From positions 2,461,266 to 2,525,265 of the forward strand of contig NC_085876.1 of the NCBI RefSeq assembly GCF_034702125.1: DNA of 64,000 bases, in the 5' to 3' direction. The notes under the pieces were generated by a model. That model did not search any database, was not told the origin of the DNA, and worked only from the letters and a program-made list of their open reading frames with translations. The position numbers and the translations under genes were made by a program. Shown piece after piece: positions 3,287-49,121 of this stretch; within the stretch, counting starts at the first letter, position 1; the number at the start of each line of letters is the position of its first letter. This DNA comes from Engraulis encrasicolus. Lineage: Eukaryota; Chordata; Actinopteri; Clupeiformes; Engraulidae.

Positions 3287-5928
3287 TTAGCAAATAACAT
3301 ATCGTCTCAGTGTCACCATAAGCTGACCTTGTACCCTGTAAGATGACAGTGGGAAAACATCATTTAACTCTGACATCCTGACTACACACACTGGGGTGGA
3401 ATCATTATAGTGAAGTTCATAAGATCTTAAATGCTCAGAGTACCATGCTGTCATTTTCAGGCAAACAAATAGGATTTCTGCATTGTCAGCCAGAATCTTT
3501 TCTATCCGGACAAATTCAGGGAGACCTGAACATGAGCCAGAAGACAGCATCATGCCGGGATGATACTTGATACCATCTATACAGACAGAGGATGCATCAA
3601 GCACTGTTCCTTGAGTAATTACTGCCTGAACTTATGGTGGTAAAGTTGACGTTGAAACTGTCTTAACCTTTGACATCTCAACTGATGGTCTGAAAAACGA
3701 GCTACAGTCAAGATTGTAACTGACTGCTTTCTGGTGTTTTGTGGCAAGTGACATGGAAACATTTTTGAAGTTCTGAGTATTGCGAATGGCTCTTTTAAAG
3801 AACTTGTGCTTCCCCTCGAAGCGTATTGTCCAAAACTCTGGTAGTGGACCAAATTTCCTTACAAGCTGAGGATAGTGCTCCACATAATGATGCTTTGGCC
3901 TCAAACGAAATTTTGGGAAAGTAGACTGCAACAAACGCCTGTGCTCAGTTATCTTACAGTCCAAGAAAATCAGTGTCTCTTCTGTATGTCTCGTTGCCAC
4001 AGTTAGCTCAACAATATCTTTAAGGAGCATGAGAATTTCCCAAGCATTCTCACCCTCAGGCACGCAGTGACCAATGAGAAATGGAAGCAGCCTTATGAGA
4101 CACCAGTTCTCATGGGCATTTCCGCCAATGGTGCCTTTGGTGGAAAATCCTTTCCCAATGAGCTGAGGTCGATCCGTTTTGTCAGTAAATGTGTAGTTGA
4201 AGTCCCTGATGGCCTGATTCAGCATGTGCAGTGTGAAATAGTTCTTGCCTATCAAGTCTGTAAGACACAGAGACAACTCAACAGGAACAATTCCTTCTAA
4301 GACATCGTGCATGATGTCAGGAGGGTACCCACTGACCACATGAAAGTGCTCAAGCTTCTCTGTTAATGGGCAAGCTCTTTTCACACCATACATTTGACTA
4401 AGCACTGGGTTCTCCCTCACTTCCTGCACTTGCCTGTCATGGGACACTTTGTCTCGGATTTGAAACGAATCTGACCATACCTCCTGCTGTTGAAGGTCGC
4501 TGCTGCTTGCCATGCAGAATCTGCAGAACTTGTTGGCGGTGAAGCCTTCCAGGAATCCTGCAAGGGAGTGCGCACCAAGATTATCCGCTGCAATATACAA
4601 GACTGTCCCTTTCACACAATCACCCAACTGCTCCACATAAACACCATTTTGCTCTAACAGCATGACATCATAGATCAGAGGTTGAAGAACTTTTTCATAA
4701 CCACATTCTTTGACTATGGATGTATTGCATAATAGAGCAAGCTGAATGGAATTGAGGGTAGACCTATATTTTGCAGGTATGTTAGCAATCAGCCAGTACA
4801 CTGCACACATTTTGTGTTTCAACTTTGATGTCCCTAGAGGATTAGCTATTTCAAAGTCATCGATGTAAAGGCTAAGAGCAACTGTAAACTCATCTTTTGC
4901 AAAAAATGCATTTTCCTTAAAGTGCTGTCCATCTGCATAAGACCTGTATTCTTGTGGGAAATGGACTTTCCCTGACATAGCTTTGTCCAAAACATCAGGA
5001 TTGTTAAGCAACTTCTGCAACATCGGGATAATGGGAACATATGCAAGCCCTTTCCTGCCCTTTTCCACAACGTACTGTATTGGGTTGACCATTGGAAACT
5101 CCCTACGCACATAGGCTTTTTAGCCGTTCCTAAAGGTCCCCCTTGGGAAAAATGTGCTGCCATGCTACTTTCTGACACAACATTGATAACTTCTTTCACA
5201 ACTGATTCATCAATGTCAGTGTAATGTTTCTTTAAAACAGCCCTGACTCTGTTTTGGAGAATTGGCTTTGACAATTCATCAATTTGGAAAAGCTGTTGAA
5301 TCACTTCTTGCACAGAACTCTCTGGTATGTGCAAAACAGCTTGCATCTTTAGCAGAAGAGAAGCTACATTGTGTTCCAGCTGCTGTTCTAGGTCAACAAG
5401 TGCATGCCCACTGGTTACTTCACTGTCCTCAACATGATCATCTGCATCTGACATTTGCTCTTGTTCAACGTCATCCTCTTGGCTTTGAATATAACCACCA
5501 ATGATTTCTGACTTAAACATTGTCCAGTTCTGTTGCCCGTGCATTTCACTCTTGTGAGCTTTGAAAGTGGAGTAAACACTACTTTCAAAGTTACAGTCTT
5601 TAAAAGGGCACCTGATTTTGTGATGTACTTTTAAATGTGCAGAATGCAGGTGAGAGAAAAAGTCACTCTCTGAACAACATGCAATAAAGCCACATGATTG
5701 ACAGCTAAACCTACATTTCACGGCTGGTTGCTGAGCAGAAGTTTTAGCGTGTATGGAGGACAAGTGCACATTCAGTGCATTGAATGATTTAAATGTGCAA
5801 AGACATTCGTCATGCAAACAGGGGATTGGCTCTGTTCTAGCATAGGTTCCATGTTTCAGTCTGTAATGTTTAAATAGTTGTGCTCTTTTCTCACAGCTAA
5901 AACTACAATACTTACACTTCCAAAGCAT
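3287..5928 (-). pseudogene. C2H2 zinc-finger + EnSpm/CACTA-like transposase-type protein, broken
   Basis: The best start is ATG 5928-5926 (MLWKCKYCSFSCEKRAQ), which opens directly on the first finger; the open frame extends further 5' to 6057. Four C2H2-like fingers follow: CKYC...HYRLKH, CLHDEC...HLSSIH, CQSC...HLHSAH and CPFKDC...HKSEMH. An acidic linker comes next (EDDVEQEQMSDADDHVEDSE). The second half contains ADNLGAHSLAGF, FCRFC, PPDIMHDVLEG and RFEGKHKFFKR. I read these as the D, zinc knuckle, D and E landmarks of a CMC/EnSpm-like DDE domain; the family call is from memory. The frame shifts by one base at the T run 5117-5121 (on this strand AAAAAG), after GTAKK and before YVRREFPMV. 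A TAA at 3632-3634 interrupts the same frame; coding sense resumes (VQAVITQGTVLDASS) to the natural stop at 3287. The protein would be about 880 residues. It is either a decayed transposase or a gene hit by assembly errors. Confidence 0.65.
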
Positions 5929-6617
5929 TGTATTTGATTTAATTGGACAAAGTAAGAAAGGTCGTTCACATGGCTTACCAGTTTCTGTAGCAGCCGAAAA
6001 CCAAGGAACAGCCACGCAGTTGATCCAGGAGGGAAGTGGGACTAGCGAGCTAGTCACTGTCGGAGACTGTTTACAGGCGAGGCGGTGCTAATTCAGGCGC
6101 GAACTCGCGCTAGCAGGCTAGTACTAGTATAGTATAGTTAGCTGATGAAAGTTCACCGTCTCACACAAACTCTCTCTCCNTCGTTCCACACCGCCGAACA
6201 GAATTTGTTTTACTAAGAACTGATGGCAACTGTTTGCCGTTAACAAAAAAAAAGTGCCTCCCTCCGCCCCCACTTAACAATACCAAGTGAAATCAGCCAA
6301 CTTAGCTGGACACTTAGCTGAGAAACAAAACGCCAACAGGTGGACAAAACAGTAGCACGTTTTTCCTCCAGTAAAATGAACTCAGTTACAACTAATAACA
6401 ACAGCTCTCGGTCGACGAAAACAATAAACAAACTAAGGAGATAATATGTTTGTGGATACAGCTCTATAATCTTTGCTATCTTCTTTTACAGCTTCTTGGT
6501 CTGACGCGCGTGCAGTTGAAAAGACTGCTGTCTGACTTCATACTCGTGTCGGTAGACTACTAGCTCTACTGTTTAAATGATGCGTGGTCACTGATAGGTC
6601 GATAGAGAGTGCGTTGC
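5929..6617. other. Upstream region of the zinc-finger gene
   Basis: The open frame of the zinc-finger gene extends to 6057 without an obvious better start. A GT at the LSAATETG|KPC region would also allow an upstream exon. There is an ambiguous base at 6180. Nothing else was recognised. Confidence 0.3.
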
Positions 6618-7745: not shown

Positions 7746-10650
7746 AATGTAATATTCCATGTCTTTTGATAACATTTGTAAATTAATTTCATGCATCATT
7801 CCATTGTAACAATCATAGGGACACTTTCTCAACTTCCACCTGCACAATATCTTGGACTCACAGGAAGAGATTATCTACATAATTCAAAAGACACCGCACA
7901 CTGCTTACCATTCTTTTTCTTACTTTATTTTGACACACAGGGCAAAATGCGTTGTTAGCTCAGAAAAATGAAGGAAGAAAAAGAACAATAAGCAGTGTGA
8001 AATGTCTTTTGAATTTTGTTCATTGTTCACCTTCTCCTGCCTCACATCAGCACCTGCATTGCTGAGGGCTTGTGCACAAGGACTCTCTTGAACTTAGGTC
8101 ATCAATATAATTTGATGGCCATTGAAAATACATTCTACACATTTATCAATTTGTCATTACTGCCTCAAGTGTCATTACTTTACCTTCTTTACATAAAGGA
8201 AAAGAGAGAAGATTTTACTGGGACTTTAATGTCAGCAGGTGTGACCAATAACAATGTGTACATCATAATTGTAATCATTCAGTCATTAACAATGTAGGAA
8301 GAAGTGAAGAATCTTGTAATAATGTAAGAAATGTCTTATTGGGTAACCAAGATGTCACTATCAAACATCAGAAAGTATTTTAGATAAATAGGGTTTAGGA
8401 CCTTCCGAAATGATTGCTCCGTCATGGCACTAAAACATACAAGTCTGTTGTTGGGACTGGAGTGGAGAGTTTTCGTGGTGGAGTGTTTGTTACACTCAGT
8501 TTATTCTATAGAGGGGTTGTCTCCTTTCCAGCACTCAGTCCATTAGGTCCTTTCAGAAGGTCTGGCGTCTATCTGGAAAATAGAAATGACAATTGTAGTG
8601 TATTATGTATGGCCATTGAACAGGAATGGTAAAGGCCAATCACATGAGTGCACAGTAGGTGATGGCAGTAATGTAACAGAATGTGAAACTCATAAAGAAG
8701 ATTGTCTGCTCTCCAGATACACCGTGATAAGTCAAAAGGTGTTAGTTGAAGGCCACTGGACTTTTTTTAAATAATATTGGACAGGAAAGCAATGGGCATT
8801 TTGCCAGAGTAATACTGGATGGAAAAACCCTTTGAAAAATATCGACACGAAAGTAATTATAATTAATATTATATTAGTATTAGTAACTATTATAATTAGT
8901 ATGAATGGTGTACTGTATGGGAAATACTACAAACGTGGCTCATAACTGTTTTTTCCCCTGAGCCACACATATCCCATGTGTTGCAACGACATTTCAGTTT
9001 TTGCACATAAAATGTGTTCGTGATAACTCGCCTATGGAATACACCCTGGTGTGTTGTTTAGACTTCTAAAACAAATGCAGTGGAGTGTGCCTGATGTGTT
9101 TACCTTTGTGGTAGACCATGCCGGTGTCAAACCGAAGTATTATCCAGACGACCGTCTTCAGGTGGTAGTGTTCGTCTGCGAAGGGCTAGTGAGAAACCGG
9201 GTCAGGAAATGACTGCACAGTAGATACTGATGGCTGGTCAACGGTGGGCTGCTATTCACAGGGGTCGAGTGAGGACGTCATGGAAAGTCCAGCTCTTGAG
9301 TCTTGACCTTCTCCTGTCTTTCTAAATAATAAATAAAGAAGTGTGTCAATACACCAGTATCACTGTAAAACCTACAACTAGTATGACCTGAAGATCAAGC
9401 AATGTAGGCCTACCAGTTATTGGCTAGACAGTCGAATTACGTGCCGTCAGTTTTACTAGCAGTAAAAGTGAAAACCACAGTCGACCTACTCCATGATTTG
9501 GTGCAGGGCTTTGACAGGCTTATCATATGATTGTGATTGTCTTGCCTACTGAAGGACTACTATTTTCCGTGCACAATTTTGTTTGAGACCAAACGTAGCT
9601 TTGATTCATTTGACTATCTGTAGCTGGTAGCATGAACAGCCATATGAAGGCACCGAGAAGAGAGCTAGTTTGAGGCGACACCAAGATTAGCCATTCAAAA
9701 ACTCAAGATACATAATATGTCCTTACCTCTGTTGTCTCCATCAGCAATCGGAACAGCAATGTTTTGTTTCTGACGCTGTCACTTCTGTCCTGCTATTTTG
9801 TTTTGCTGGTAGAAAGAGCTTTGGCGCAAAAGCCGCACACACGTAGCCTCGTATCCAGGAGAGTGTGGCGCGTTCCTTTTCCATCTCAACGCAAAATGCC
9901 ACGGTTTCATAAAGCTTGTCGTTTAGTTTCAGCATCCAGTATATGCGCACATTCAACCCATAGCAAAGTTCTAGCCGAAGAACTGTTAAAAACCGAGAGC
10001 TTCAACGTTTGCTTCTTGTTACTTTATCATGTTGCCGACTGCCGTAGCAGAGCTGGCTGGCTCCTGGCTGTCAGAATGAGCGTCGCAGAAAGATGACGTG
10101 GCACACCTCAGTCAATACAGATTTTTAATTCGTTTACTGAACCCGGGAGATTTAAATATTGAAATGAGGCGGAAACGTAATTGTATCATCCCAATGACCC
10201 TAAATAAAATAAGAAAATACTGTTTATGCGTGTACGACGGATTTAAAGTCTGTGCCCCGCTGACTCCCGTTCTATGGTGGTTTGTGGATATCGCCCAAAC
10301 CCAAAATCTCACGGAAGGCTTCAAATCAAACAAAAGTGACACAGGTGGGTAGCTCAGTGTATGATACACCATAATTAAGGTCCCAAATGCAAAATACCGA
10401 CCTATTCCTTTAAGTGCAGGGTACAGTTGAGGTAAATCAAATATACCTGTGTAACAAGACTCTGATCTAATTCAAAGTGTACGCATAACATAAATGACAG
10501 TCCCAAAACATTTTGTGACCATATCGAAGATTGTGTAATCTCGGTTTATGTTGACATTCGGTTCCTGCCATATCTTTGTCCCATATCGCTTGCCGTAGCC
10601 TCATATAAGCAGATGTACATGTGCATGAGAATTCCTGTGCATATCACTAA
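7746..10650. other. No recognisable gene
   Basis: This is AT-rich non-coding sequence. Short open frames at 9741-10096 and 10098-10372 have no recognisable motif and no matching splice structure. The segment ends at the left TAA duplication of the Harbinger element. Confidence 0.5.
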
Positions 10651-11187
10651 TGCCGTGTCCAGACCAAGAGCAAACTGCGCTACCAGGTAGCTGTGGTAGC
10701 ACAAGAAGCTTCGCTCCTGAATTCGCCTCGGTAGCGCAGTTCCCTCGTGACGTCACATTTGGAATGTTCAGTTTTTAAAGGCCCCGCTGCGTGCAGCACC
10801 CCCGCGAAAAAGAACAAAGAAGGAAAAGATCGACAGGGATTTTTTAATTACACATTGTTATGAAAACATAGGTTTACGCCATGCTACAAATTACATATAA
10901 ATACAGGAGGTGCAAACGAAGAGTTGGAATAGCCGAGGCAGCTATGAAAAAAGGGGAAAAAACTGAATAAAAATCCGAAAAATAGGCATAGGCCTAAATT
11001 CAAAATTAAAAACACGTAATTGCCATGTGCGTGGTTTACTACTGTGCATTCGACACGGCAATTGAAGCAGTGTCTGGATTGAAAGTCTATTGGGACATTG
11101 GCCTAAAGCAATGGGCAAATAACCACGAAAAAAGTAACCAGTTAAAATGTTTTGTTGCAATCTCGCTGACAATTGTACAGCCTTCAC

Positions 11188-11241
11188 ATTGGCTCTTGAG
11201 GTTGTGTCCGGAACAAATGAGATGCTCTCCCGCTATAAAAG
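11188..11241 (+). promoter_or_regulatory. CCAAT/TATA promoter of Harbinger transposase
   Basis: An inverted CCAAT (ATTGG, 11188-11192) lies about 42 nt before a TATA box (TATAAAAG, 11234-11241). The ATG follows 45 nt after the TATA box, so the 5' UTR would be very short. The compact arrangement together with an intronless gene resembles a replication-dependent histone gene promoter; that comparison is inference. Confidence 0.6.
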
Positions 11242-11286: not shown

Positions 11287-12498
11287 ATGGAAGACCAGGA
11301 CACCGTTTGTATCATCGGACTGCTGTATTTAGTGCAGCATCTTCAGAGCACTCGACCGAGGAGGAGGAGGAGGATGTGGGTACATGACATCCTGCAGGCT
11401 CTTGAGGAGTTGGGCGAGGGCTACCGGCTTGTGCAGGAGCTGCGGCTGGACGGGGCGGGATTCCAGAGGGCCTTCAGACTGACCGTGGAGCAGTTTGACA
11501 GCTTGCTGTCAAAGGTCGGGCCGCTGATCACCATGCAGCGGACCAACTACCGGAAACCGATACCCCCGGATCAGCGCCTGTACATGTGTCTGCGGTACTT
11601 GGCAACCGGAGACTCCTACCAGAGCATCGCCAACAGCTACCGTGTGGGGAAGAGCACGGTGGCCATGATTGTCAACCAGGTGAACCGGGCGATCTGGGAT
11701 GCCCTCGTCGCCGAGTACATGCCTACTCCGACGGCCGAAGACTGGAAGAACATCGCGGAGGGGTTCCGGCGTCGGTGGGACTTTCCCCAACTGCGTCGGC
11801 TCGATAGACGGCAAGCATGTGGTAATGAAGGCCCCGGAGAAATCCGGTTCTTTGTTTTTTAACCACAAGGGCACCTACTGTATTCCGTTGTCCTGATGGC
11901 TGTGGTGGACCACAAGTATCGCTTCAGAGTGGTGGACGTGGGGTCCTATGGGAGGACCAGTGATGGTGGGGTGCTGTCTAACTCCAAGTTTGGAAAAAAG
12001 TTGCAGAAGGGACAGCTGGACCTACCCGGGGATGCGCCGCTGCCGGGAGCCGCGCACCTGGGACCACAGCCGCATGCGTTCGTGGGTGATGAGGCGTTCC
12101 CGCTGCGCCGCAACCTCATGAGACCATACCCGGGTCACCAGACTGGCAGCCGCAGAACCTTCAACTTCAGGCTGTCCCATGCGAGGTTGGTAGTGGAAAA
12201 CACGTTCGGCATCTTGACGGCCCAGTGGCGTGTTTATAAACACGTCATCGAGCTCAATGCGGAGAATGTGGATGCGCTCGTCAAAGCGACTTGTGTGCCG
12301 CACAATTACCTGCGACGCGACGCCCCTCACGACCCGGCTCTGATGACGGCTGCCACGGATCCAGACGTGGATGCACCTTTGGGCCTCCAGCCCATTTCCA
12401 GGGTTGGCAGTAACAACGCCACTCATGAGGCCATTCGAGTGAGAGAGACCTTCACCTCTTACTTCACCAATGAGGGAGCGGTCACCTGGCAGCCTTAA
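11287..12498 (+). pseudogene. PIF/Harbinger (HARBI1-type) transposase, two frameshifts
   Basis: This is an intronless gene starting MEDQDTVCIIGLLYLVQHLQ, which fits the usual MED(E/Q)D start of fish HARBI1-like transposases. A helix-turn-helix region (LRYLATGDSYQSIANSYRVG) precedes the catalytic DDE_Tnp_4 core. The three acidic residues can be placed in [21 protein letters not shown] and LVVENTFGILTAQWRVY. The frame is broken twice. One extra C in the CCCC run at 11785-11788 comes just before NCVGSIDG. A second break at 11880-11884 is best explained by an extra GTATT, after which MAVVDHKYRFRVVDVG resumes. The total length of about 400 residues is normal, so no large piece is missing. The product would bind and cut the Harbinger ends with the MADF/Myb-type partner. 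As sequenced it is inactive. Confidence 0.88.
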
Positions 12499-12514
12499 CA
12501 CCGGGCACCACAAC

Positions 12515-12553
12515 GGCACTTTTAAGTGCCAAACAAAGGCTCTTTTCAGAGCC
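12515..12553 (+). promoter_or_regulatory. Two tandem histone-type 3' stem-loops
   Basis: The 16-nt hairpin GGCTCTTTTCAGAGCC (12538-12553, followed by ACC and preceded by CAAA) is identical to the canonical replication-dependent histone mRNA stem-loop. A second hairpin, GGCACTTTTAAGTGCC (12515-12530), has the same 6-bp stem and 4-nt loop; its one departure from consensus is compensated in the stem. They begin 17 and 40 nt after the transposase TAA, a typical distance for histone genes. In histone genes SLBP binds this structure and U7 snRNP directs cleavage without polyadenylation. I do not see an unmistakable downstream U7-binding element. Function here is inference. Confidence 0.8.
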
Positions 12554-12599
12554 ACCTAAATGCATTGAAGGCATATTCCATGACACTAATTATCAAAAT

Positions 12600-13236
12600 A
12601 CTTTAGAGTCTTTCAGTAAGGCCTAGGTAGGCTACGGGTTTACGGTTTGGCTGTAGATAAAATTTGTTCGTAGTGCAACATTTGTAGCCTCACGTCAAGT
12701 CCACACATAGATTCTATGGTAAGTCTAAAAAAATGTGTTTAATCTTTTTCCATTCGAGAAGCCACTTAGGATTTTATACATCCAAAGGCTACTATGAACA
12801 CAAACCAAAAATGACCCCTGTACTTTAGGCCTAATATTAGGCAGCCACTTTCACTACTCCTCTGAACAGTTAAGTTTAATTGTATAGGCCTACTGCAAAT
12901 CAGGCATTTTGGTCAACCTGTACACATTTACTTACAGATTAGTTGCGCACATTCATGGCTTCATGGTGCTTTGTGGGAAAATTGTCCAGGTTAGTGTGCA
13001 GAAGTGTTTTGCTAATGCATTAGGGCCTACAGCACTTGCTTAATAACTTTAATTTCATTGAACCACTCCAATTGGCCACTTACAGTGTTTTCCTCTACAC
13101 CAAGGATGTCAAACACAGGCCCGGGGCCTAGTCTGGCCCACAGACTGTGTTTGTGCTGCGAGCATTTCAAATACAGTTGGCCCATGAGTGGCATAACAAG
13201 AGTTGAATCAAATTTGGTGTGTCACATGCTCTATAG
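12600..13236. other. Non-coding interior of Harbinger with hAT-like fragment
   Basis: Nothing coding is seen. At about 13098-13130 the text CAAGGATGTCAAACACAGGC resembles a hAT terminus of the CAGGGGTGTCAAAC type, but I cannot find its other end. Confidence 0.35.
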
Positions 13237-13556
13237 CAGTGGTTCTTTAACCTTTTTTTTCTTTTCTTAAAACACCCCCTTACCTGTGTTGAGGACAAGC
13301 CGTGCACCCCCAACCTTAACTTTTGCACGAGTATGCGAGTATAAGTGATTAATTACAATGACTCTTCCTAGTTGAGACATTAATCAATACTTATATGACT
13401 TTAAATGGTGACCAAAACATGTTTTGATTTGGCCTAATTATAATGTTTGCAAGCAGAATTTTGGTCCCAGCCTCAACACAAACAAAACACCACGCTCCAC
13501 CTGGAATCTCTGGTGCACCCCCAGGGGATGCCCGCTCCCCAGGTTAAGAACCACTG
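13237..13556. mobile_element. Non-autonomous hAT element (MITE)
   Basis: The ends CAGTGGTTCTTTAACC and GGTTAAGAACCACTG are inverted repeats. The 8-bp duplication CTCTATAG is exact on both sides (13229-13236 and 13557-13564). It is non-coding and lies inside the Harbinger element between its two genes. Confidence 0.94.
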
Positions 13557-13593
13557 CTCTATAGGCTAATGTGAAAATATGAGGGCAATCACC

Positions 13594-13997
13594 ATAGAGC
13601 TCGAAAGTGACGTCACTTCCCCCGATTTCATGGGACCTCAACGGCGTTTTTAGCCGAAAATCATAGCATGTAATCCAATGGCGGTATTAAAATGATATTT
13701 CGATCCCCTTCGAGTTGTGCCACGAGCTCCATATATGTTGTTTCTGATATTTTTGCTTAATTTTTCGTATGAACCCCCAAACTTTTTAGAAAGCTGTGTT
13801 TCTTCACATTTTTCATGCCGACGGCCTCGGAACAAAACATTGATACTTCTGCATGAATAATCTTTATCTAGCCTCTTAAACAGCACAGCGCATATCATGA
13901 CTGAGATCAGAAGATATTTACTCTCTACCATGTTGTTAGATGGTCAGCTTAGGTCCCGTGAAACGCGGAACTAAGGGGCGGGACTTTCGAGCTCTAT
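13594..13997. mobile_element. MITE with 15-bp inverted ends
   Basis: ATAGAGCTCGAAAGT at 13594 is matched by its reverse complement ending at 13997. The interior is non-coding with no recognised motif. I see no clear target duplication, so the superfamily is unknown. Confidence 0.65.
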
Positions 13998-14453
13998 GAA
14001 CCAGTGTAACCAGTGTAACGATAATATAGAGTATGACATACTATACAACAGAGTATATATGTAGGGTATAACTACAATCAAGACTGTAAATTAACTCTAA
14101 ATTAACACCTGCCAACCAGGCAAAGACTGAATATTTCGTTTTGGCTGATAGAAAATACCAACTCACTTCTTTGACTCATTAGTGAGTGTGTGTTTGGCTA
14201 TAAGATTAACATCATCTGTCCATTTTGGCTGGTGATCAAAACAGTCAATTTAAAGCCCTGACTACAATAACATGTTAGCAGATTGAATGTTGTGTAACTG
14301 GATGTGTAGGTCATCACATAAGAACAAGAGTTATTTCCAAGTTCAATTTTTTTTATTATTATTATTATTATTGAAAAAAAAAAAACAAGGCAAATGAGGC
14401 ACGCACTCACACACTCACTCACTCAGTCAGTACTGAGTATACTGTGGTCCCTC

Positions 14454-15103
14454 CTAAGCACCTTCGTTCTGCTTGGCCTCATACACCAAACGGTGAAACT
14501 GAAACTTGAGGTCCTGTCTGGTCCTCACAGACAGGGTGCGGAACTCCTCAAGAAGAGATAAAAAAAAAAATAGCTGTCCGCATCATCCTCAACTGGAGGT
14601 GCGGGAGGTGGATGAGCAGGCCTACTAGCAATGGCCTCCATAATCTGCAGCATCCTCTCCCCCACCTCTTCTGGCTCCTGCTCTGGCCGCTGCCTCTTCC
14701 TCTGGCCCTGCCCTGGTCGCTGCTGCTGCTGCTGCTGCTGCTGCTCTGGTCGCTTCTGCCCTTGCTGCTCCTGCGATCCCTGCCCTTGCCTTTGCCCTGG
14801 TCGCTGCTGCTGCTGAGGCTCCTGTGACCCCTGCTCCTGCTCCTGTGTGCCAGGGCCCCTGCTCCCCTTGTCTGGCGCCATTCTCTTCCTCCTCCTCTTC
14901 CTCCTCCTCCTCACTATCCCCTCCCATGTTGGAGGACGTATTGCGGTCCTCCATGAAAGGCACGACAAACGCCATAAGTGGCATGAATCTCCACTTTCTG
15001 ATCACCCCGCCCTCAGCTCCGCTCCTCCTCCTGTCCCTCTCCTTCTTCCTCTCCCTTCTCAGTGTGTCTCTCAACCCCTTCCATTTCTTCTTACACTCCT
15101 CAG
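14454..15103 (-). pseudogene. MADF-BESS Harbinger accessory protein, last exon
   Basis: The exon begins after a TAG acceptor at 15104-15106. With one base from the previous exon it reads AEECKKKWKGLRDTLRRERK, the third-helix signature of a MADF (Myb/SANT-like) DNA-binding domain, and ends that domain at WRFMPLMAFVVPF. An acidic stretch (Glu run, GAG repeats near 14890-14920), a Gln-rich stretch (CTG tract 14711-14742 on the plus strand) and a C-terminal BESS-like motif follow: LLEEFRTLSVRTRQDLKFQF, then HRLVYEAKQNEGA and TAG at 14454-14456. Two frame changes separate these parts: one in or near the GAG tract and one in an 11-nt T run (plus-strand A run 14560-14570). Both are slippage-prone, so they may be assembly errors. 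In Harbinger systems the Myb-like partner carries the transposase to the nucleus and to the ends. Confidence 0.75.
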
Positions 15104-15733
15104 CTACCAAACAGATACAAACAAACAAAAAATGTAGGTCTACAAAATGCAAATGCACACACACACACACACACACACTTCATAAAACAATCATTCCAGG
15201 AGGTAACACGGGGGTGGGGAAGGGGGGCTTGAATAGCCAGGATTTCTTCCTATGAAGTATGTTTACAACCACCTGCTGGAGGAACTTAGTTGAAACTATC
15301 AGGACTACCAAAACGCAGTTTCCTACTCATCGTACATTATGACTACTCATTTATAATTTTCTACCAACATGTTAGACCGTAGGCGATTTTGCTTAAAGGG
15401 GTATGCCACTATTTTGGGGCTTAATACAGTTAAAATTGTTGGCTGGGGTTTATAAAGGTGGTAAAGTGTCTTATTTTTCATGTTAAGCGTTGTCTTGTTT
15501 TAAGACAAGTTAAAAGAGGGAGTATGTCGCTAAGATAGTGAAAGTCAATGCATCCATGTAGCATACATGCTACACGGATCCATTGACTTTCACTAGCTTA
15601 GCGACATACTCCCTCTTTTAACTTGTCTTAAAACAAGACAACGCTTAACATGAAAAATAAGACACTTTACCACCTTTATAAACCCTGGCCAACGATTTTA
15701 ACTGTATTAACCTCTTACCGCAGAGCCCATTAT

Positions 15734-17197: not shown

Positions 17198-19190
17198 TTA
17201 GTGTGTGCTCTTCTGCTCGTGCCATGTGGTGAAGCAGAGTCTGTCCACAATAATGCACAGTGCAACCTGGCAAGCCTTGCACTTGAACATTGTCTTCATG
17301 CCACAGAGCACACACTTTCTCCTCCCTTGTGTCGCCTTGAGGTGTGGATCAGAGGACAGCTGATCCACAACCGGAACAGGGAGACATTGGCAGGAAGACA
17401 TTGCCTGGGCTTGCGGTGTCTCACCAGTGGCTTCAGCAGACACATCTGCACTGGAAGTCTCTGCTGGTGGGTCGGGCTGTGGCTTGCCGAAGTCAGCCAG
17501 CTCCAGGCACAGAAATTCCCTGAAGGATTTCTGGGTCAGCGGCGTCTCCCCCTGGGCCAGTGCGGTCTCCTTGTGCAGGATGAAGCTGTTCACAACCGCA
17601 ATATCCACAAAGTGGAGGAACAGCTTCATGTACCACCTCCGTGTCTTGTGGGTCACGGTGTAGTACTTGATGAGGGCGTCACTCAAGTCCACTCCTCCCA
17701 TGAACTTGTTGTACGCCTTCACCGGCTCCGGCACAGGGACTTCCCGAATGCTCCACACGGCTGTGTTCCGGTCCTTGACTCGGCGCTTCACGGTCTGCCC
17801 CCCGTAGGCCTTGTGGATGGTGGAACACATCGTGACGTCCCGGCTGTCCCTCCACTTCACGAACAGCAGTGGACCATCCCGAATCCAACGCAGCTCTCCA
17901 CGGGCTGCATTCTTCGGCATGGCATTCCACTGTGTGCGCGGAAACCCGATCCTGTTCTCCCGGATGGTCCCACAGGCGCCATAGTTCATGCCATGGAGGT
18001 GGAGGAACAGCTTTGAGCTGGTGTAAAAGTTGTCCACATACACGTTGTACCCTGTGCCCAGGGACGGGACATGGATCAACTCTACAACAGCATCATAACT
18101 GAGGCCCTGCCCAGATGGTGCCCTTGCCTTCCCCTCATAAATCGAGAAGTGGCACGTATAGCCATTCGAGCTGTCAGCCAAGACAAACAGCTTGAACCCC
18201 CACTTTGTTGGCTTGTCCTTGCTGTACATCTTCATCCCGATCCGGGACTTGGTGCCTACCATCCTCTCATCCACTGAGAGGTTCTGGAGCGGGTGGAAGT
18301 AAGCCCTGCACGCCGTCAGGAGGTCATCATGCAGCGGCCTGAGGCGGCAGAGGCCATCGTGCCCAGGCTGGCCCTTCAGCTGATCATTTGCTGCATCAAC
18401 AGCCGGGTCACTCATGTGAAGGGTTGAGAAGATTACCTCGTATCTGTACCCTGGCATGACGGATGCAGGGAAGGGAAAACTGTGAAGGCGGTCCTTCCTC
18501 CATCCGTCCCGCATCTCTGGCAACTTCATCAATCCCTTGTAGATGACCAATCCGATGAAGCGGTACATCTCCTCCGGCTCTATGTCGACCCACTTCCTCT
18601 TTCGTCCTTGTGCAGCCCTTTTTGCAGCATGGAGATTGGTATGCCTGCACAGGGTCCTAACCACGTCCTTGCTGAAAAACAATAAGAACAGGTCAAGCGG
18701 CCGGTAGTCTACCTGAGGGTCCAGCTGTGGTCCTGGAGGGCGCCTGGGTCGAAATGGCAACGGTGGAGGCTCCACGTCTTCACTCGTTGCATCACGCCAG
18801 AAGTCGGAGTCCTGCGGCGGTGGACCCAGGGATGCACGCTTCGCAGGACGGCTTGGCGTTGAGGCAGGGGCTTGTGAGGTGCGTTTACCACTCGTAGCAC
18901 CACGGCTTGGTGGAGGAGGGCATGGAGTTGGAGCAGAGGCTTTTGAGGGGCGCTTACCACGCCTAGCACCACGACTAACTGGAGGAGGGCATGGAGTTGG
19001 AGCAGGGTGGAGATCACGGCGCCTGCCACTCATGCGCACACTGCTGGCAGCTGGAGGAGTTGGAGAGGCAGCTGGAGGAGTTGGAGAAGCAGCTGGAGGA
19101 GTTGGAGAGGCAGCTGGGTGTGGGGCAGTTGAAGTCCCTTCCAAAGGGTCATCAGATGTGTTCCCATCATCCGAGTCAGATGTCTCCTCA
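17198..19190 (-). CDS. piggyBac transposase, exon 2
   Basis: The acceptor GTTCATACAG (19191-19200) gives phase-2 joining to exon 1 (GAT TT|T GAG GAG ACA). The N-terminal part is acidic, then holds Pro-Ala repeats (AASPTPPAASPTPPAAS) and basic patches (RRGKRPSK). The DDE_Tnp_1_7 core follows with all three catalytic Asp in context: NLSVDERMVG, YNVYVDNFYTS and KFMGGVDLSD. The C-terminal cysteine-rich domain contains CVLCGMKTMFKCKACQVALC and ends near WHEQKSTH, TAA at 17198-17200. There is no frameshift or premature stop. With exon 1 the protein is about 717 residues, within the range of vertebrate piggyBac-derived proteins plus an acidic N-terminus. It should excise and insert the element at TTAA. 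The intact frame contrasts with the broken Harbinger genes around it. Confidence 0.92.
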
Positions 19191-21489: not shown

Positions 21490-24247
21490 CTGTAGAAAAA
21501 AATAAAATAATAATTTCCCCAAAATTAATAAAATAATAAACTATCGCGTAGGCCTTCATTAATGTATGGTGAAAATAAATGAGCGCGCAACAGCCTGTTG
21601 TAAGAGACGCGAAAGGAACCCAAATGAGCAGCAGCCCATAATTGTATCATCCCGACATCTTAGGCCTACTGAAAAATGTATCAATTTGTTACGTCTTGCT
21701 CTTGAGTCACTCACCACATCACTGGCGGCAGTCTTCTAGTTCTAGTGAAAGGAGAAGTAGATTGGCTGTCAGTATGCACAGTAAAGAGAGTTCTAGGCCC
21801 CTACTGGTTACCCTTCACAGATATTTTCACTGTCGACGGAGGCAAATCCAAAAATGGCATCTCGTTATACTGAAGAAACGGAAGAAAGTACTATAGGCCA
21901 AGTCTAGACCATTTGGATTCCGATAAAAATTAGCAACTATTGTTAGCACAAATCCACATGGCTTGCTAGTTGTGATGGGTGTGTTGAACCGTGTGGATGT
22001 CAGTGGAATACTAGTGAAATTCTGTGATCAAGAAAACGTTTGAAGGTAAGGCCATTTAGTTATTAATTTGCCCACTGTGGCATGTTGGCTTGGGCCCGAA
22101 TGATTTTACCTTGCGCAGGTTACTCCAAAAACCTGACCATAAACGGCTTATTGATGCGCATAAACGGGCTCAGTGAGAGTATATGTTTGAAATAGGTTCG
22201 TCTATTTTCCTCATTTATGTGCGCTAAATGACTGCGCAATGTTGACAAACTTTGATGGAGATGGACGTTCTTTCAAAAAAAGTCTGTATGCTCAAAACGG
22301 TAGGCTATGCTATGCCCGTCATGATACTTTTTTTCTAGGTGTAGTGCGTAAATGTGGTCTGCATTGGAATAGCGGCTAGCATTGCGACATGTCCAAATGA
22401 CAATGGAATGCTTGGATCGCTAATGTTTGGCAAGCCTAGTTAGCCTACACCCCTTGTAGGCTAGTGTGAGCTGAGTTCGTGGATTTTGGTCTACTGTTGA
22501 TTGAGGGATGGTGTTTTGCGTCATTCCTGACAAACCACGTGTCAAACTGATTTCAGGGAGATGTTTATATTAGTTATGCTGACTAAACCAACGCGCTCTG
22601 TGAAAACCCCCAAACAGCCTCGCACAGGTTCACACAGCCTTTCTCTCTCGCGCGCTCCCTGTCGTAGCCCTTCTGCGTAATCGAATCCAGTTATTCCACG
22701 CACGATGCACAGGTTGTATTGTCTGCACGCTCTGGGCTACTTAATCCCTACTCTCGGGCAGGGGGCAATTATCAATATCAGACTCTCATGAACTTCAAAT
22801 ACTTGGCTTGCGTTCATGTGGCCACCACGGTGTCACCTAGACATGCAGTGAATGTTCATCTTATCTTCACGCCCTGTGCTATTTTCATGTAGCTTAATTC
22901 GGTCCTGTCTTTGTTTTTGTTGCTTTCTGTTATCTTTTCAACTCGTACATTGTAATGGGCGTGTGTACACGCGAGTGATTTTCATGTATTTTAATTGACT
23001 ACAACCCAATGCGAAAGTCGCGCAGTAGTCACACAGGCTATATATACTGTCCTGTCCGTAATAACCACTGGTTCTGTCATCCGTGGAGTCGAAATATGCG
23101 ATGTGAACGTGGGCCTGCATGTAGCCAATCATGCGCTTGTGCCCTAAATATCATGTACCGGTAATTAAAGGGCGTTTCCCTACAACGGAAAGGCAGGGGT
23201 TATAGCACAGCCCTTAAACAATCTGTGGTTATAGGTAGACCATGGGGCCACGAGTAGGCTATCTAAACGTATGTCCAGTAGCCTATACAAGTTATATGAG
23301 CAATGTCCCAATGAAAATGAAACTTATCAGCTTGCAGCAAATGTCATGTCATTTAAAAGTATTGCTCAATTAATTGGTAATCACCTCCTCTATTTTGGAC
23401 AGAGTGTAGTTACTGTACTTTGGAGTAGTATTGCCTCCTACTGACCTGTCTTGGTATGGCTGCTACATATGTAGCTTTCAGTTAATTCAATGTGGTAAAA
23501 TATGCACCATGTTTTCAGAAATGCATTCTGGTGTTGAAATGTTGCATTGGTTTTCAATACCCACCTCAATAACTTTAGTGCAACATCACAAGCCTAGAAT
23601 GCATTTCTAACTGCATACGTTGGTATTCGTTTTTACAGCTAGAATTGAACGTGGTGGTCAGTTTCTTTCAGCCAAGTGCTGTAGCCTACCAACAGGGAAA
23701 TGATCTGTGTTTTCGTGAATAACACTATAGAAATAATGCAAAAATGAAAACATTATCTTAAATGTTTGAATAATGTGTTTGAATAATAATAAGGCCTACA
23801 TGCAGTATGTCCCGTCGTCCCCCGGCCCCCCCTCCCCGACCAGGAAAAAAGTTCAGGCTCAGGATTTTTTTTCACTATCACCCCTGTTATCCCTATACGC
23901 AAAACATGTCGGGTCGTACAACAGCGGGTAACCGGACACCGCAGCTATTAATTTTTCAGTGGCCATTGTTGTTTAGAGTAGGAACTAGGAACCAAAGTTT
24001 ACACGTATGTTTCCGCCGACCCCCGGACCCTACAATCTGTGGATGTTCATTGGTTTTCGCCAGTTTTCGCCAGACTGCGTCATAGCTCATTAGCATAGGA
24101 TAAGATGGTTTTTAAACCTTGGAATACGCTCTGGTCGCTCAAGAAGCTTCGCTACTGGCGAATTCGCTTTGGTAGCGCTGGTCGCGTGCCCTCCATAGAG
24201 AAATAATGACTTCCGTCGCTTCGTTCGCTCTTGGTCTGGACACGGCA
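21490..24247. other. Right part of Harbinger, no further exon identified
   Basis: This should contain the first exon of the MADF gene. A short frame at about 21860-21815 (MPFLDLPPSTVKISVK then GTAACC) is phase-compatible with the next exon but does not look like a MADF start. The right terminal region (24110-24247) mirrors the left one. Confidence 0.4.
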
Positions 24248-48613: not shown

Positions 48614-49121
48614 GGAATTGTCGATGATCAGGGAAGGTTCTTGGACATTTTTGCCGGGCCACCTGATAGAGTGCATGATGCGCGAATGCTGAAACTTTCG
48701 CCATTACTTAAACAGAAAACAGTACTACTCTGTGCTTTTACAGGGAATTGTCGATGATCAGGGAAGATTCTTGGACATTTTTGCCGGGCCACCTGATAGA
48801 GTGCATGATGCTTTCGCCATTTTTGCCGCTTATGCACAGAAGCTCGGAGAGTACACACTCCTTGGGGACGGTGCGTACTATGGCAACACATTCCCCTTCA
48901 TTGTCACACCTAAAAGGGATAATGGGGCATTGGGGGAGGGTGACCTGCGCCAAAATGGCATTATTTGCAGAGGGAGGGTGGTGGTGGAGCAGGCGTTTGG
49001 CCGCTTAAAGTGCAAATGGAGGCGCCTCCGTGATCTACAAAATTGTTGTGTGGACATAATTGTGAAGAACATTGTTGCTGCATGTGTACTTCACAACTGT
49101 GAAGAGGATGATAACGAATGA
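48614..49121 (+). pseudogene. Harbinger transposase, C-terminal exon with internal duplication
   Basis: After a CTTTTACAG acceptor (48741-48743) the frame reads GIVDDQGRFLDIFAGPPDRV, HDAFAIFAAYAQKLGEY, TLLGDGAYYGNTFPFIVTP and VVVEQAFGRLKCKWRRLRDL, ending at TGA 49121. It carries the second Asp (GDGAYY) and the Glu (VVVEQAFG) of the DDE_Tnp_4 core; the part with the first Asp is absent. The first about 80 bp of the exon with its acceptor are also present 130 bp upstream (48614-48690), where the text continues HDARMLKLSPLLKQ, likely the original order. The downstream copy lacks 13 bp (GCGAATGCTGAAA). Probably decayed. Confidence 0.8.

Follow-up and report, generated by a model that had tools for sequence, protein, structure and literature searches.

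Does a mobile element in this DNA end its transposase mRNA in the way that replication-dependent histone genes end theirs? In histone mRNA, SLBP sits on a hairpin and U7 snRNP on a downstream element, the transcript is cut a few bases past the hairpin, and the product serves without a poly(A) tail and is broken down once replication is over. A reading made from the letters of the window alone (the window being the whole 64-kb stretch of DNA analysed) had claimed an exact histone hairpin shortly after the stop codon of a Harbinger transposase gene, together with a second hairpin of the same geometry 23 nt upstream. Based on comparison of the window with the remainder of the host genome and with proteins from other fishes, we propose, with a probability of about nine in ten, that in a clade of teleost PIF/Harbinger transposons the transposase gene has a histone-type 3′ end with all its parts, and that the pre-mRNA is most likely cut via SLBP and U7 and receives no poly(A).

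Two histone-type hairpins follow the transposase gene

The relevant features of the window, with position and strand, are as follows:

10648–10671 (+): 5′ terminus of the element, made up of TAA and the terminal inverted repeat TGCCGTGTCCAGACCAAGAGC (from 10651)
11234–11239 (+): TATAAA box, 53 nt upstream of the ATG
11287–12498 (+): PIF/Harbinger transposase gene, without introns, broken in the window copy (open stretches 11287–11862 and 11896–12498)
12515–12530 (+): first hairpin, GGCACTTTTAAGTGCC, 16 nt 3′ of the stop codon; pair 4–13 changed from T-A to A-T, pairing retained
12538–12553 (+): second hairpin, GGCTCTTTTCAGAGCC, the canonical histone stem-loop and probably the one used in processing
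12554–12558 (+): ACCTA flank; cleavage predicted at about its end, by analogy with histone mRNAs
12565–12580 (+): putative histone downstream element, TTGAAGGCATATTCCA; duplex with the 5′ end of host U7 of −17.2 kcal/mol, 0 of 1000 shuffles as good
14525–15176 (−): convergent second ORF region of the element, tentatively MADF/Myb-like by eye; AATAAA at 14357 (−), 167 nt after its stop; no histone hairpin
24227–24246 (−): end, in inverted orientation, of a related copy that is probably non-autonomous; TAA follows on the + strand

Both claimed hairpins are present. The second matches the canonical histone stem-loop exactly, is separated from the TAA stop (12496–12498) by 39 nt, and is the sole match to these letters in the 64 kb at two mismatches or fewer, where shuffles lead one to expect 0.02. 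It lies inside a match to the Rfam Histone3 model (RF00032; 12533–12577) scoring 34.4 bits against a cut-off of 34. The first hairpin starts 23 nt before the second, start to start, and shares its geometry, the two differing in one compensated pair and one loop base; alone it scored 19.4 bits against the Histone3 model, below the cut-off, in a match clipped at the 3′ end by the stretch supplied. As the histone consensus we took a 6-bp stem and 4-nt loop reading GGYYYUUUUMARRRCC followed by an ACC flank, ACC 3′ of the stem being the histone consensus in the Rfam model. This was found in the window and in 20 of the 43 readable loci described below, and the first hairpin of the window departs from it at its one compensated pair. 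A scan for the histone pattern on both strands of the 64 kb returned these two hairpins only. The stretch 12499–12560, which holds both, folds better than 200 of 200 shuffles; with 40 more bases added, 3 of 200 shuffles fold as well, and for 12533–12577 one of 200 does. The possibility of a histone cluster in the window was rejected, given that the hairpin is the only Rfam match there at gathering scores and that no histone ORF was recognised among the ORFs listed.

The gene upstream is a Harbinger transposase, as had been stated: 11896–12498 matches Pfam DDE_Tnp_4 with 80.5 bits, 11287–11862 matches HTH_Tnp_4 below that family's cut-off, and the counterpart at locus L012 matches DDE_Tnp_4 with 109.5 bits. 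The closest protein among the matches listed came from Coilia grayii, at 66% identity. The gene had also been called intronless, and this agrees with its intact counterparts, which are single uninterrupted frames of 399 aa (L012) and 395 aa (L015), the window copy itself being broken. A CCAAT/TATA promoter had been claimed as well, and here one half stood: TATAAA occurs in both subfamilies, lying at −41 in the second. ATTGG, the inverted CCAAT, occurs at −99, −190 and −198 in the window, and neither ATTGG nor CCAAT was found within 260 nt in the second subfamily, so the CCAAT part is not conserved. A histone-like promoter is weakly supported.

Concerning the element as a whole, the repeat TGCCGTGTCCAGACCAAGAGC recurs, inverted, at 24227–24243 and at both ends of a complete copy on contig C7, which is 8508 bp long, has matching terminal repeats with TAA on both sides, and encloses a 399-aa single frame and the hairpins. 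No 3′ end could be found for the element in the window itself. For the L012 counterpart of the second ORF, Pfam yields only a sub-threshold BESS motif. Inside the Harbinger copy, two short stretches bounded by inverted repeats (13229–13564 and 13593–13998) are probably nested non-autonomous elements.

The window holds further elements. An uninterrupted 648-aa piggyBac-type transposase ORF lies at 17198–19144 (−) (Pfam DDE_Tnp_1_7, 256.5 bits), and a fragment of a different DDE_Tnp_4 transposase, with no histone-pattern hairpin nearby, at 48732–49121 (+). Two overlapping long ORFs at 3632–6057 (−) comprise one with a sub-threshold Plavaka transposase match and one that is zinc-finger-like by eye; a 336-aa ORF at 1386–2396 (−) has no Pfam match. 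A near-perfect inverted repeat at 15421–15710, with 144-nt arms that are 96% complementary and 2 nt apart, is perhaps a fold-back element.

The hairpins are retained in diverged copies

A search of the 1.43-Gb host assembly with a 201-base query gave nine matches including the window, one of them short and left out. Three copies at 94–99% identity have both hairpins unchanged, in a copy at 83% they are lost, and three at 70–72% carry two canonical-type hairpins in tandem (with one loop T in L009). L012 and L015, copies of the two subfamilies, were compared. Their transposases are 67% identical over 393 residues, fourfold sites agree at 57 of 139 positions and, past the second hairpin, 33 of the next 100 nt are identical; in contrast, the second hairpin is identical at 16 of 16 positions and the first at 13 of 16, the three differences amounting to one compensated pair and one loop base. 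Likewise, between L013 and L016 the second hairpin is identical at 15 of 16 positions and the downstream DNA at 27 of 89. Conservation of the hairpins against diverged fourfold sites and downstream DNA points to selection on them as RNA structure outside the coding sequence. Further compensated variants were found in L048 (GGCCCTTTTCAGGGCC) and in L040–L042 (GGCCCTTATAAGGGCC), and tandem hairpins 22–23 nt apart occur in three lineages, namely the window subfamily, the second subfamily and L040–L042. Of seven further stretches searched, five exceeded the Rfam Histone3 cut-off and two (L013, L017) fell below it. Absence from other Harbinger copies, on which the sequence-only reading had staked its claim, was not what we saw: near copies and divergent Harbinger lineages alike keep the hairpin at the same position.

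Distribution among Harbinger lineages and other fishes

A protein search of the host genome, in which 150 matches were scored of 241 candidates, led to 50 inspected loci (30 and then 20 more). Their hairpin scores were bimodal, with 20–22 of 22 in 20 loci and 16 or less in 30. Seven of the 50 stopped short of the transposase C-terminus and were left out; among the 43 readable loci, a hairpin follows directly on the C-terminus in 20 and is absent from 23, one copy being counted twice among the latter (L035 and L053) and L024 being the window itself. At all 20 loci the hairpin is in sense orientation and after the transposase stop, the last hairpin being located 25–54 nt after the C-terminal protein match, and the lineages that bear it extend down to about 50% protein identity.

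A tree was computed from 47 loci and five public proteins, three of the 50 loci with fewer than 170 aligned residues being omitted, including the hairpin-bearing L042 and L048. All 22 hairpin-bearing rows, four of them from other fishes, fall within one clade of 28 rows (support 98/92), and the hairpin label requires 3 changes on the tree compared with 16.9 for shuffled labels. The six hairpin-less rows of this clade (L029, L034, L035, L037, L053 and, going by its protein tail alone, P0091) look like later losses. The tree fits a single old acquisition of the hairpin inside Harbinger followed by a few losses.

In other fishes, where only proteins were compared, four of 196 homologues continue past the usual stop in a frame-shifted tail that takes in the translated hairpin; they come from Pogonophryne albipinna, Siganus canaliculatus, Semicossyphus pulcher and the eel Synaphobranchus kaupii. 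Two tails are in one frame (GSFKSH, GSFQSH) and two in another (ALLRAT), from which we infer that both frames together force GGCTCTTTTAAGAGCCACCC. A further 163 of the 196 stop at the normal place and are uninformative on the hairpin either way. The control for these tails is blunt, given that a short peptide may coincide with conserved residues of the transposase (5 of 3000 shuffled motifs match at least four of the 196 proteins, and random hairpin motifs up to 118), and the weight of the four matches is in their position after the usual stop. A protein search with the tail alone returned only its query.

Two scans of viral contigs revealed no relatives. The sole hit of the viral pattern scan, a hairpin in contig L001, was rejected as a chance match inside a large ORF. 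A genome-contig match, L010, was set aside as a probable eukaryotic contaminant; the contig ends at the transposase C-terminus and is therefore silent on the hairpin.

A downstream element complementary to host U7 snRNA

Most lineages share another conserved stretch, identical or similar to AAAAGCAATATTCC, 15–17 nt downstream of the hairpins. Its tight form, AAAAG[CT], is present in 6 of 9 lineages; a looser form is shared by 8 of 9, all except the window subfamily. In 22 control windows the tight and loose motifs occurred in at most one and two lineages, and in 2000 shuffles in at most two and three. The motif was chosen after inspection of the data but before the host U7 was fetched. Three U7 loci in the host genome exceed the Rfam cut-off, and the host U7 snRNA reads GGAATATTGCTTTT, the exact complement of the AAAAGCAATATTCC-like element; the best locus, L074, reads ATTGGAATATTGCTTTTAAG before its Sm site. 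The strongest duplex, in L041, reaches −20.1 kcal/mol with 15 contiguous pairs, and the pairing in the window, which includes a bulge and G-U pairs, is less perfect than in other lineages. Compared with shuffles, pairing came out at 0.020 or better in 8 of 9 lineages, and still at 0.046 or better in 8 of 9 with the other two U7 loci, P values that are overstated because the Harbinger loci are related. L048 gave no U7 pairing signal (0.27 against shuffles). Complementarity to the 5′ end of human U7 gave no signal; the host U7 differs from it. C7 bears a group of several neighbouring U7-like snRNA copies (L075, L076) whose 5′ ends are unlike that of the C5 copy L074.

The U7-pairing element lies 11–17 nt beyond the hairpin. 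Its spacing from the second hairpin is that of histone genes, which makes this hairpin the one likely to direct processing; the first would then be retained within the mRNA. Over the 150 nt after the C-terminus, the best U7 duplex has a median of −15.9 kcal/mol in the 20 hairpin-bearing loci versus −8.5 in the 23 hairpin-less ones. One hairpin-less lineage (L049, L051, L054, L060) reaches −15.3 kcal/mol in a stretch about 74 nt after the transposase, which may be chance or a relic.

Comparison with the host's own histone 3′ ends had been suggested by the sequence-only reading. Six histone-type ends, three of them assigned by their proteins, pair with U7 at −9.3 to −12.7 kcal/mol, all at 0.032 or better; with U7 locus L075 the histone ends attain −14.9, close to the top transposon value for that locus (−14.7). 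One H2B-like protein, named by eye, is encoded by both L079 and L081 (Pfam Histone above cut-off for L079), and L080 encodes an H4-like one, likewise by eye (below cut-off). A genome-wide Histone3 search, which scored 75 of 190,631 candidates and is no census, placed 72 on C1, where three places were confirmed as histone genes, one on C1785 and two in Harbinger copies. These two, L038 and L036, score 43.3 bits and rank 25th and 26th of the 75, within the range of the presumed histone genes.

Poly(A) signals near the transposase gene

AATAAA or ATTAAA occurs within 110 nt of the C-terminal match in 14 of 23 hairpin-less versus 3 of 20 hairpin-bearing loci. The three exceptions are one lineage (L032, L050, L063), in which the U7-binding element itself spells AATAAA, and the other 17 have no such signal within that distance. 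In the Harbinger lineage L045, L046 and L047, the transposase frame is broken by an intron-like stretch and no histone hairpin occurs within 420 nt of the match; in L045 and L046 a poly(A) signal lies 51 nt past the match. The convergent second ORF is followed by AATAAA or ATTAAA within 600 nt in three of five copies examined, L012 and L014 having none, and its strand shows no histone-pattern hairpin in eight stretches. On the transposase gene, then, the histone end seems to stand in for a poly(A) signal.

Discussion

The claim of a histone-type 3′ end on a transposon is supported by the conserved position of the hairpins, the diverged background in which they persist, and a downstream element complementary to host U7. 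Both cis elements are present, conserved and spaced much as in histone genes, and the downstream one is complementary to U7 genes of the same genome. Based on what is known of histone mRNA, SLBP would bind the stem-loop of the transposase pre-mRNA, U7 snRNP would base-pair with the downstream element, and cleavage a few bases after the hairpin would leave a transposase mRNA without poly(A). If the resemblance extends to behaviour, the transposase would be made mainly during DNA replication and its mRNA destroyed when replication stops. The likeness to the replication-dependent histone mRNA end (RF00032, SLBP, U7 snRNP) comprises the stem-loop letters, the ACC flank and a similarly spaced U7-complementary element; both genes are intronless, with a short distance from the stop codon and, in most transposon lineages, no nearby poly(A) signal. 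The transposon differs in that its gene is the transposase of a mobile element scattered over chromosomes, in having two tandem hairpins in three lineages, and in a U7 pairing that in some lineages exceeds that of the six host histone-type ends (with L074).

How far such an end would govern the mRNA, and to what benefit, can be read in other ways. The hairpin could be a back-up, most transposase mRNA being polyadenylated further downstream and the hairpin modulating stability or acting in some cells. ATTAAA or AATAAA does lie 365–371 nt past the second hairpin in L014–L016 and 869 nt past it in L012, and some H2B genes also yield polyadenylated mRNAs (PMC3661734); however, three of seven copies, the window included, have no such signal in 900 nt downstream, and hairpin-less relatives have it much nearer, so that we consider a mere back-up role unlikely. 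A possibility to be taken somewhat more seriously, although we do not favour it, is that the histone-type end is used for a benefit other than S-phase timing, an intronless poly(A)-free mRNA being exported and translated in oocytes, testis or early embryos, tissues in which histone mRNAs receive special handling, or escaping poly(A)-linked control. Nothing speaks directly against this, and both benefits can coexist. The hairpin-bearing transposases that we read through have no intron, and the intron-bearing L045–L047 have no hairpin within 420 nt of the match; testis-biased expression was reported in medaka for Harbinger elements (PMC9179366), which may or may not carry the hairpin.

Whether the signal does anything at all is a separate matter. 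That a histone 3′ UTR was captured once and carried along without function is very improbable in view of the compensated changes and conservation across subfamilies, the wide distribution, and the U7 pairing in 8 of 9 lineages, even though capture is the simplest source of hairpin and U7 site together and both have disappeared from some copies. The signal may plausibly have been taken from a histone gene, and the captured-UTR alternative raised by the sequence-only reading concerns origin, not use. A hairpin is also a palindrome in DNA and might act there, for example as a transposase binding site, or have arisen by chance. We give practically no credence to either, as consensus, loop and flank are strand-specific, the hairpin is in sense after the stop in 20 loci, the opposite strand of eight copies lacks it, and only 0.02 were expected in the window.

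Previously described teleost PIF/Harbinger transposons (PMC9179366) share with these elements the DDE_Tnp_4 transposase, a second ORF, terminal inverted repeats and a 3-bp target duplication. As for such a 3′ end, the terms 'stem-loop', 'untranslated' and 'polyadenylation' have 0 occurrences in the main text of that paper. Transposons with multicopy RNA genes as targets, Dada among them (PMC3706591), are likewise DNA transposons linked to multicopy host genes; they are tied to these genes by where they insert, whereas the Harbinger elements carry an RNA-processing signal. A literature search, mostly of papers available without subscription, found no description of a histone-type 3′ end on a transposon.

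Descriptions of the histone 3′ end normally concern histone mRNAs, and a mobile element using it makes the cell-cycle coupling of eukaryotic cut-and-paste transposons testable by simple mutations. If our reading is true, poly(A)-selected RNA-seq misses these transposase mRNAs. The U7 sites of the transposons also offer an independent record of the joint change of U7 and its targets. Going further, we lean, with considerably more reserve, towards the view that a teleost-wide Harbinger clade ties its transposase to DNA replication and keeps re-fitting its U7 site to the host U7, the fit in some lineages being closer than that of host histone genes. Transposition would on this view be licensed in S phase, the time at which cut-and-paste can increase copy number.
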